The notes beneath the pieces are model-generated. The model was not told the origin of the DNA and did no database searches. It saw only the letters and a program-made list of their open reading frames with translations. A stretch of DNA of 64,000 nucleotides from Hypericibacter adhaerens (GTDB lineage Bacteria; Pseudomonadota; Alphaproteobacteria; Dongiales; Dongiaceae): contig NZ_CP042582.1 of NCBI RefSeq assembly GCF_008728835.1, positions 2,046,001 through 2,110,000 of the forward strand, given 5' to 3'. A program made the translations under genes and the position numbers. This document shows, one piece after another, positions 29,141 to 39,002 of this stretch. Numbering within the stretch: the first letter of the stretch is position 1; each line of letters starts with the position of its first letter.

Positions 29141-37485
<8,345 letters not shown>

Positions 37486-37541
37486 TCTCGAGTCCGTGCG
37501 GTGGCTTCAGGCCCCCGCTCGAGCGAGAGCTGAAGATCGAA

Positions 37542-37573
37542 GGGGCCCGTCTTCCGGAAGGAAGGCGGGCCCC
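37542..37573 (+). terminator. Rho-independent terminator after rpoC
   Basis: 14-base arms (GGGGCCCGTCTTCC and GGAAGGCGGGCCCC) with one T-G pair and a GGAA loop, followed by GTCCTTTTC. It lies 57 bases after the rpoC stop and separates the rpo operon from the str operon. Confidence 0.88.
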
Positions 37574-37912
37574 GTCCTTTTCGGGGTGCGACAGAGCGCC
37601 CGGAACGACTGTCCTGCGCCATTTGCATGGATTCCGGCCATCTCGGCGCCTCGTGCAAGGGTGGCCGGGGAGAATCACATTCAATATATTGATTCAGAAC
37701 TGAAATTTATGACTGCCACCGCGGCCGAGGCCGCCTCGGCGACGCGGAAGGCGCTCCCGGGCGGCGGCGGCGGCGCGAAGCGCTCCTGTGGATGAAACCG
37801 GGCGCCCGGGGCTGAAACCCGCAGAAACCCTCGGTTAATTGAAAATTGCCCGCCCCGCGCCCAGGCCCCGGCAACCGCCCGCAATGCAATGAATTCTCTT
37901 GCTGTTTCGCGC
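37574..37912. other. Intergenic region with AT-rich palindromes
   Basis: About 340 bases between the rpoC terminator and the str promoter. The palindrome TCAATATATTGA (37681-37692) is followed at once by TTCAG-AA-CTGAA (37693-37704). The pair stands out in GC-rich surroundings and could bind a regulator. No gene was seen. Confidence 0.45.
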
Positions 37913-37941
37913 TTGACGGGGGGGAGGTCGATTCATATTAT
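37913..37941 (+). promoter_or_regulatory. str operon sigma70 promoter
   Basis: TTGACG at 37913-37918 and TATTAT at 37936-37941, separated by exactly 17 bases. This is the best promoter match in the window. It would start transcription around 37948, giving a leader of about 190 bases before rpsL. Confidence 0.8.
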
Positions 37942-38022
37942 CCGCGCGCCTTCCGGGGCTGGTGGTAGACCTGCAAACGGTCTAGACGCAGCGCCGCCGA
38001 AAAGCACGAACGACACACATAG

Positions 38023-38060
38023 GTCGCCGAGCGGGGCCATGCCCCTGGCGACTATTTTTC
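38023..38060 (+). terminator. Terminator-like hairpin inside the str leader (candidate attenuator)
   Basis: GTCGCC (38023-38028) pairs with GGCGAC (38047-38052), and GGGGC pairs with GCCCC around a CAT loop. TATTTTTC follows directly. This has the form of an intrinsic terminator but lies about 80 bases before rpsL, after the strong promoter. A second stem, CGAGCC/GGCTCG, follows at about 38069-38091 and could be part of a switching structure. Confidence 0.6.
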
Positions 38061-38140
38061 TGGCCGCACGAGCCGAAGCGTTTTGGCTCGGCGCGGTCGT
38101 TTGCATCGCGGTTTTGCAACCGTACGAGGACCTATAGCCG

Positions 38141-38512
38141 ATGCCGACGATCAATCAGTTGATCAACAGCCCGCGTCGCCCGGTCGCCGCCCGCAACAAG
38201 GTGCCGGCGCTGAATTCGAGCCCGCAGAAGCGCGGCGTCTGCACGCGCGTCTACACCACGACGCCGAAGAAGCCGAACTCGGCGCTGCGCAAGGTCGCGC
38301 GCGTGCGGCTCACCAACGGCTACGAGGTCACGAGCTACATCCCCGGCGAAGGCCACAATCTGCAGGAGCATTCGGTCGTCATGATCCGTGGCGGCCGCGT
38401 GAAGGACCTGCCGGGCGTTCGCTACCACATCATCCGCGGCACGCTCGACACCCAGGGCGTGAAGGACCGCCGCCAGCGCCGTTCGAAGTACGGCGCCAAG
38501 CGGCCGAAGTGA
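38141..38512 (+). CDS. rpsL: 30S ribosomal protein S12
   Basis: 123 aa. The decoding-centre loops [12 protein letters not shown] and [14 protein letters not shown] are wild-type at the two Lys positions that give streptomycin resistance when mutated. First gene of the str operon; GAGGA lies upstream of the ATG. Confidence 0.99.
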
Positions 38513-38531
38513 TCTAAGGAGCGTCGATCCG

Positions 38532-39002
38532 ATGTCCCGTCGTCATGCTGCCGAGAAGCGCGAAGTCCTGCCGGACGCCAAGTTCGGCGACGTCGTCATC
38601 ACGAAGTTCATGAACTCGCTGATGTATGCGGGCAAGAAGTCGGTCGCCGAGCTGACCGTCTATGGCGCGCTCGAGCAGGTCGAGAAGAAGTCCAAGGGCG
38701 ATCCGGTGAAGGTGTTCCGCGACGCGCTCGACAACGTGAAGCCGCACCTCGAGGTGCGCTCGCGGCGCGTCGGCGGCGCCACCTACCAGGTTCCGGTCGA
38801 GGTCCGTCCGGAGCGCGCCCAGGCGCTGGCGATCCGCTGGATCATCCAGACCGCGCGCGGCCGCTCCGAGACCACGATGACCGACCGCCTCTCGGCCGAG
38901 CTGCTCGACGCCGCCAACAACCGCGGCGCCTCGGTGAAGAAGCGCGAAGACACGCACAAGATGGCCGAGGCCAACAAGGCCTTCTCGCACTACCGCTGGT
39001 AA
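38532..39002 (+). CDS. rpsG: 30S ribosomal protein S7
   Basis: 156 aa. The family starts [19 protein letters not shown] and has the 16S rRNA head-binding core [20 protein letters not shown]. It lies 19 bases after rpsL. In E. coli S7 represses the str operon at this junction; no similar structure was clear here. Confidence 0.98.

Follow-up and report, generated by a model that had tools for sequence, protein, structure and literature searches.

A conserved structured RNA in the rpsL leader of Hypericibacter adhaerens and other Alphaproteobacteria

The 5' leader of the rpsL-to-rplQ ribosomal protein cluster in Hypericibacter adhaerens contains a conserved structured RNA of ~41 nt, which we term E1 (37955..37995, + strand). 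We identified E1 by leader comparison and with a covariance model, and we are highly confident that the rpsL operon has in it a genuine structured cis element. Coordinates throughout refer to the window, the 64,000-nucleotide stretch of the 5.87-Mb chromosome analyzed here. E1 is best read as a so far unnamed family of the ribosomal protein leader (r-leader) kind, with probable attenuation. Comparative evidence points to a conserved, covarying secondary structure in the 5' leader, and E1 is specifically associated with ribosomal protein operons: 90 of 93 genomic matches lie before rpsL or rpsJ.

Structure, covariation and distribution of E1

E1 is predicted to form two stacked helices, P1 (37955-37961 with 37989-37995) and P2 (37966-37971 with 37979-37984; both + strand), separated by a conserved internal loop (GGYNGU/ARACRC). 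Among relatives, the most conserved part of the leader is the segment just behind the promoter that contains E1, GGGGCUGGUGGUAGACC...GGUCUAGACGCAGCGCC, and neither of the hairpins found farther downstream. Our comparison included one further species of Hypericibacter (G001, hereafter the sister species), which differs from the window at no position in the P1 or P2 helices and at one position in the P2 loop. Folding of the leader as a single sequence (z -1.95) retained P2 and the downstream hairpins, with the P1 strands paired elsewhere; in the minimum free energy structure, the 5' strand of P1 pairs with bases directly ahead of the rpsL start.

Two alignments were used to assess this structure. 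Both lean toward it, since the first was picked by a motif and the second was selected by and fitted to a model that 18 of its 98 rows had built. The first, A1 (MAFFT), was drawn from 33 sequences retrieved with a regular expression; 20 were kept, and doubtful sequences and those with long P2 loops were dropped. Because the motif dictates how P2 begins, the invariance of those pairs is in part a product of the selection. In A1, 88.5% of cells are paired; shuffles give 81.6%, and none of 500 reached the observed value. Of the 13 pairs, 7 show change on both sides, a number matched by 16 of 500 shuffles. RNAalifold applied to A1 recovered the same P2 and a P1 that was shorter and partly shifted.

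The second alignment, A2, comprises 98 loci (96 distinct sequences) and omits near-duplicates, loci with a weak or absent match to R1, the covariance model built from A1, and five Rhizobiales leaders that differ (L012, L015, L016, L019 and L030). Here 92.1% of cells pair (shuffles, 76.6%), 178 cells have changed on both sides and still pair (shuffles, 52.5), and the covariation score is 0.486 (shuffles, 0.211); none of 500 shuffles reached any of these values. When partners were slid by 1-3 columns, at most 52.4% of cells paired. Change on both sides occurs at 11 of the 13 pairs, a count that 67 of 500 shuffles also reached and that is therefore weak on its own. Pair 15-92 occurs as UA (40), CG (21), AU (15) and UG (6), and pair 23-85, invariant in the 20 sequences of A1, occurs as AU (80), CG (5), GC (5), GU (3) and UA (2). 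Six columns are invariant in all 98 rows (G17, G21, U22, A86, A88 and C89); two bases each occur in column 18 (T or C) and in column 90 (G or A).

Model R1 finds a single clear match in the H. adhaerens genome (51.7 bits; the runner-up scores 14.9). Across 385 genomes of the class, it returned 93 matches in 92 genomes at E<=0.1, a count that may be short of weak matches because large whole-genome scans can miss them. Eighty-eight of these lie ahead of rpsL and 2 ahead of rpsJ (S10); the remaining 3 (in G274, G159 and G347; E 0.0195-0.0289) have none of eleven reference genes nearby. In a sample of the phylum, 9 of 299 genomes matched at E<=0.05, all 9 from Alphaproteobacteria. At the same cutoff, E1 was present in 32 of 40 leaders chosen by kinship and rpsL similarity; no match was obtained in L096, L098, L104, L105, L107, L111, L114 and L116. 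A second model, R2, matched 108 of the 385 class genomes at E<=1, contexts having been checked for part of the weak matches; one of these, in G075 (C11, E 0.012), falls within open frames and away from ribosomal protein genes. At E<=0.01, R2 matched 6 of 80 named rpsL loci, a set that includes other classes.

Some leaders in the class look different by eye. In 20 class members, mostly with small genomes, an E1-like sequence is plain in a few (for example, L213 and L219) and was not seen in most. The five Rhizobiales leaders set aside from A2 carry a different-looking GAUGUGAGG...CCUCAAACA behind the promoter, together with a CCUCUGC-like motif and a hairpin ahead of UUUUGCGCA or a similar sequence; this element is possibly a divergent E1 missed by the models. 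The rpsL leader of a 1.2-Mb genome (L226, G113) has no visible E1 and contains GGTAG...CTACC repeats that, at a guess, may represent a motif of the type described in Pelagibacter.

Genomic setting and promoter

The cluster begins with rpsL (S12; 38141..38512, +), and its genes are closely packed from rpsL through rpsE. Within the cluster, Pfam confirms the identity of S12, S10, L4, SecY, adenylate kinase, S11, RpoA and L17; the remaining gene names were assigned by reading translations. A similarity search places the nearest named rpsL genes in Rhodospirillaceae/Rhodospirillales and other Alphaproteobacteria. A plasmid search with the region returned 16 records, all with query coverage below 80%, and the five listed matched rpsL alone.

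Upstream, rpoC ends at 37485. The terminator scan detected a terminator-like hairpin behind it (37542..37573, +; 14 pairs, tail GTCCTTTTCG), which makes a separate promoter for rpsL probable. The gap between rpoC and rpsL is GC rich apart from a short AT-rich island at 37680-37710. A preceding annotation made from the window's letters (the sequence-only reading) had proposed a near-perfect promoter, TTGACG-17-TATTAT, and our scan bears this out: the sigma-70-type site at 37913..37941 (+) has 10 of 12 consensus bases, is the sole such site within 37400-38800, compared with 0.1 sites on average in shuffles, and has both hexamers unchanged in the sister species. That reading named a promoter downstream of the hairpin it had flagged in the leader (hairpin A, described below) as a finding that would count against attenuation; in the stretch it covered, the scan returned no other sigma-70-like promoter.

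For comparisons across the class we used 108 distinct leaders (119 minus identical ones); these are related, so counts among them are not independent. A recognized promoter of the same type precedes E1 in 106 of the 108, a count made without a shuffle control. In 101 of these 106 leaders, P1 starts 12-18 nt past the -10 element, which, given the usual initiation distance, would place E1 at the extreme 5' end of the transcript. In H. adhaerens, the promoter predicts a transcription start ~7 nt ahead of E1.

Hairpins and a short open frame between E1 and rpsL

Two hairpins lie between E1 and rpsL. Hairpin A (GGTCGCC..GGCGACT, 38022-38053, +; -20.9 kcal/mol) is followed by the T-run ATTTTT (38054-38059, +), and the two together form a candidate intrinsic terminator (38022..38059). 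The hairpin and TATTTTT run described in the sequence-only reading are thus present, ~80 bases past the -10 element. Among 1000 dinucleotide shuffles of the leader, 13 contained a hairpin with such a tail that was as stable as hairpin A, and 282 contained some tailed hairpin of -9 or better; hairpin A is therefore unusual in one sequence and not beyond chance, and conservation has to decide. Hairpin A was not listed by the automatic terminator scan.

In the sister species, hairpin A is kept with nearly the same energy (-21.1 kcal/mol) despite four changes. Two of these lie at the internal loop, where one costs the hairpin a single G.U pair; a third affects the apical loop, and the fourth converts the closing G.U to G-C. 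Two further changes fall in the linker ahead of hairpin A. Among the leaders examined, however, hairpin A with five T one base behind it occurs only in the window and the sister species. In other leaders, [AC]ATAG and a hairpin occupy the corresponding position, in some cases with GTTTG or, after several bases, a T-run. In the window, ACATAG (38017..38022, +) stands directly 5' of hairpin A, and [AC]ATAG occurs in 23 of the 108 leaders, compared with a mean of 10.2 and a maximum of 20 in 200 rounds of mononucleotide shuffling.

The second stem reported by the sequence-only reading corresponds to hairpin B (38062-38098), which with its trailing GTTTGCATCG spans 38062..38108 (GGCCGC..GCGGTC, +; -24.1 kcal/mol). 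In the sister species, its energy is -23.2 kcal/mol, and a substitution and a 2-nt deletion at the tip remove one A-U pair. Hairpin B, defined by a GACCGC/GGCCGC start and a GGUC/GGUU end, a rule applied without a shuffle control, is present in 14 of 14 distinct family leaders, and GCA follows it closely in 11 of the 14. These leaders come from 15 of the 17 genomes of the family, G002 and G005 having no usable rpsL leader; for L088, the automatically excised segment starts upstream and takes in an additional stem. Behind hairpin B, the window has a weak T-run (GTTTGC).

Considered more generally, terminator-like hairpins (at -9 kcal/mol or better and with a T-run behind them) are enriched past E1. 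They occur in 85 of the 108 distinct leaders, compared with 27-34 in ten rounds of dinucleotide shuffling, and are absent by the same criterion from 23. A GC-rich hairpin followed by a T-run, as in an intrinsic transcription attenuator, is accordingly found both in the window, as hairpin A, and in most leaders with E1. A conserved antiterminator pairing was also sought by eye; none held between the window and the sister species, and folding gave competing pairings only.

The 3' part of the leader (38099-38140) is identical in the sister species. By eye, it holds an inverted repeat, CGGTT-TTGC-AACCG (38109..38122, +), ahead of GAGGA (38126..38130, +), the probable Shine-Dalgarno sequence of rpsL.

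A 32-codon open frame (38039..38137, +) is the one element of the sequence-only reading that we discard. Its ATG at 38039 and its TAG at 38135-38137, three bases ahead of the rpsL ATG at 38141, are as that reading gave them, and since the frame spans hairpins A and B and ends so close to rpsL, it could in principle encode a leader peptide that controls attenuation by ribosome stalling. In the sister species, however, TTG stands in place of the ATG, and a 2-nt deletion changes the reading register, after which no stop occurs before the rpsL start; this makes a functional leader peptide very unlikely, and we judge the frame not to be a gene. It is also the tail of a longer frame of 82 codons, whose opening at 37889 lies ahead of the promoter, and its ATG, located within the apical loop of hairpin A, has no clear Shine-Dalgarno sequence upstream. 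We give attenuation by this route almost no credence.

Proposed mechanism and ligand, and relation to known leaders

The sequence-only reading had proposed a terminator-like attenuator in the str leader. This stands as the preferred interpretation, and the sister species retains hairpin A, but the parts of the leader that are widely conserved are E1, which went unmentioned, and hairpin B. With moderate confidence, we interpret the leader as an r-leader that uses transcription attenuation. Its observed basis is the structure of E1, its position, its specificity and the enrichment of terminator-like hairpins. For the protein ligand and its identity, for termination and for the direction of control, we infer the following scheme. 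The 5' leader of the rpsL-to-rplQ cluster would act as an r-leader in which E1, at the 5' end of the RNA, is the first part to fold and serves as the sensor, and hairpins A and B, located between this sensor and rpsL, would act as intrinsic-terminator or pause hairpins. When newly made rRNA uses up the ligand, read-through would prevail.

Other explanations of the same leader deserve weight to differing degrees. Many known r-leaders act on translation, and E1 could likewise be a site at which a ribosomal protein binds to control translation or mRNA decay, with hairpins A and B playing structural or pausing roles without real termination. The weak T-run behind hairpin B, the 3' leader and Shine-Dalgarno sequence unchanged in the sister species, and the predicted pairing of the P1 5' strand with bases just ahead of the rpsL start would all fit such a mode of action; the good T-run on hairpin A and the excess of terminator-like hairpins over shuffles (85 of 108 leaders versus 27-34) argue against it, and we regard it as possible though rather unlikely. 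That the hairpin and T-run arose by chance in a leader devoid of regulatory role is highly improbable: 13 of 1000 shuffles do equal hairpin A, but chance accounts neither for the covariation and genomic specificity of E1 nor for the presence of hairpin B in all 14 family leaders.

The position of E1 raises a further idea, namely that it is a 5'-anchored RNA acting on RNA polymerase or elongation factors, as HK022 put RNA does, and enabling read-through of the hairpins downstream. The distance of P1 from the -10 element (12-18 nt in 101 of 106 leaders) and the placement of E1 at the head of long ribosomal protein gene series (str or S10) with terminator-like hairpins behind are compatible with this. 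However, put RNA comes from a phage and is built differently, and a position at the 5' end is also natural for an r-leader; we consider the idea unlikely. In its fuller form, E1 would be encoded by the host and would itself modify RNA polymerase, so that terminator hairpins are read through where the ribosomal superoperon begins. E1 would then be the chromosomal equivalent of put RNA, occurring across Alphaproteobacteria and able to move between str and S10 promoters. This form seems to us more doubtful still.

Returning to the r-leader interpretation, the two matches ahead of rpsJ bear on the identity of the ligand. In G066 (L174) and G368 (L169), which belong to different families (f51 and f63), rpsJ is preceded by a promoter, E1 and a terminator-like hairpin. 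The rpsL leader of G066 (L098) has no E1 match with R1. In G368, where the end of tuf lies ~1.5 kb from rpsJ, whole-genome scans list no second E1 match; E1 ahead of the rpsL of that genome, whose locus was not found, is excluded to the extent of these scans. Because E1 precedes rpsJ in these two genomes, its ligand is most likely a product of the S10-spc part, which is always downstream of E1. By analogy with E. coli, we guess that L4 is the first candidate. Mimicry of rRNA was searched for in E. coli rrnB: the E1 model found no convincing E1-like site in 16S or 23S (best 7.8 bits), and a strict motif rule, itself passed by only 80 of the 98 E1 rows, gave 0 matches in these rRNAs.

Known RNA families do not account for E1. 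At gathering scores, Rfam 15 detected three tRNAs only in the window and no match for E1; relaxing the search of the leader stretch to E<=10 gave two sub-threshold matches, neither to an rpsL family, and the leaders of 20 relatives gave none. We take the Rfam families rpsL_ricks (RF01774) and rpsL_pseudo (RF01773) to derive from the rpsL-leader attenuators of Naville and Gautheret. Neither model matches the H. adhaerens genome, which sets the present leader apart from these families. Across 61 genomes, rpsL_ricks gave no match over the cutoff and 4 weak matches elsewhere; sub-threshold matches in class members include G018:C266:4787-4886 (37.6 bits) and G053:C61:97535-97662 (32.8 bits).

The following comparisons rest on the portions of each published source that were accessible to us. 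Naville and Gautheret (2010) reported rpsL-leader attenuators in Listeria, Xanthomonas, Pseudomonas and Rickettsia that, like the present leader, have a terminator hairpin in the rpsL leader, a proposed attenuation mechanism and no known ligand (PMC2965389); rpsL_ricks has been applied in a Rickettsia study (PMC4683814). The rpsL motif of Candidatus Pelagibacter ubique, reported from P. ubique and marine metagenomes only, is likewise a structured 5' UTR RNA in the rpoC-rpsL gap of a fused str-S10-spc series in an alphaproteobacterium (PMC2704228). It is described as a three-stem junction with a bulged P1 and a conserved J2-3, whereas E1 has two stacked helices; the two may share a common origin. 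Eckert and Weinberg (2020) described structured r-leaders, one of them (L2, rplB) in Alphaproteobacteria, and in the accessible text placed none ahead of rpsL in that class (PMC7247131). The E. coli S10 leader, regulated by L4 (PMC2704228), is a 5' leader controlled by a product of its operon, as we propose here; no Rfam family matches E1. The B. subtilis rplJL leader undergoes autoregulatory transcription attenuation by L10(L12)4, the mechanism proposed here, but differs in protein, operon and RNA (PMC4538822).

In the parts of the literature covered we found no description of E1, and an earlier description is possible. Within the same parts, the Pelagibacter motif and the Rickettsia attenuator are the only rpsL leaders so far described for Alphaproteobacteria. 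The model and alignment of E1 make its ligand and mechanism directly testable. The cluster downstream of the leader runs from S12 to L17 and includes RNA polymerase alpha, EF-G and EF-Tu; although internal promoters are possible, E1 would be a candidate control point of this cluster across a large part of the class.
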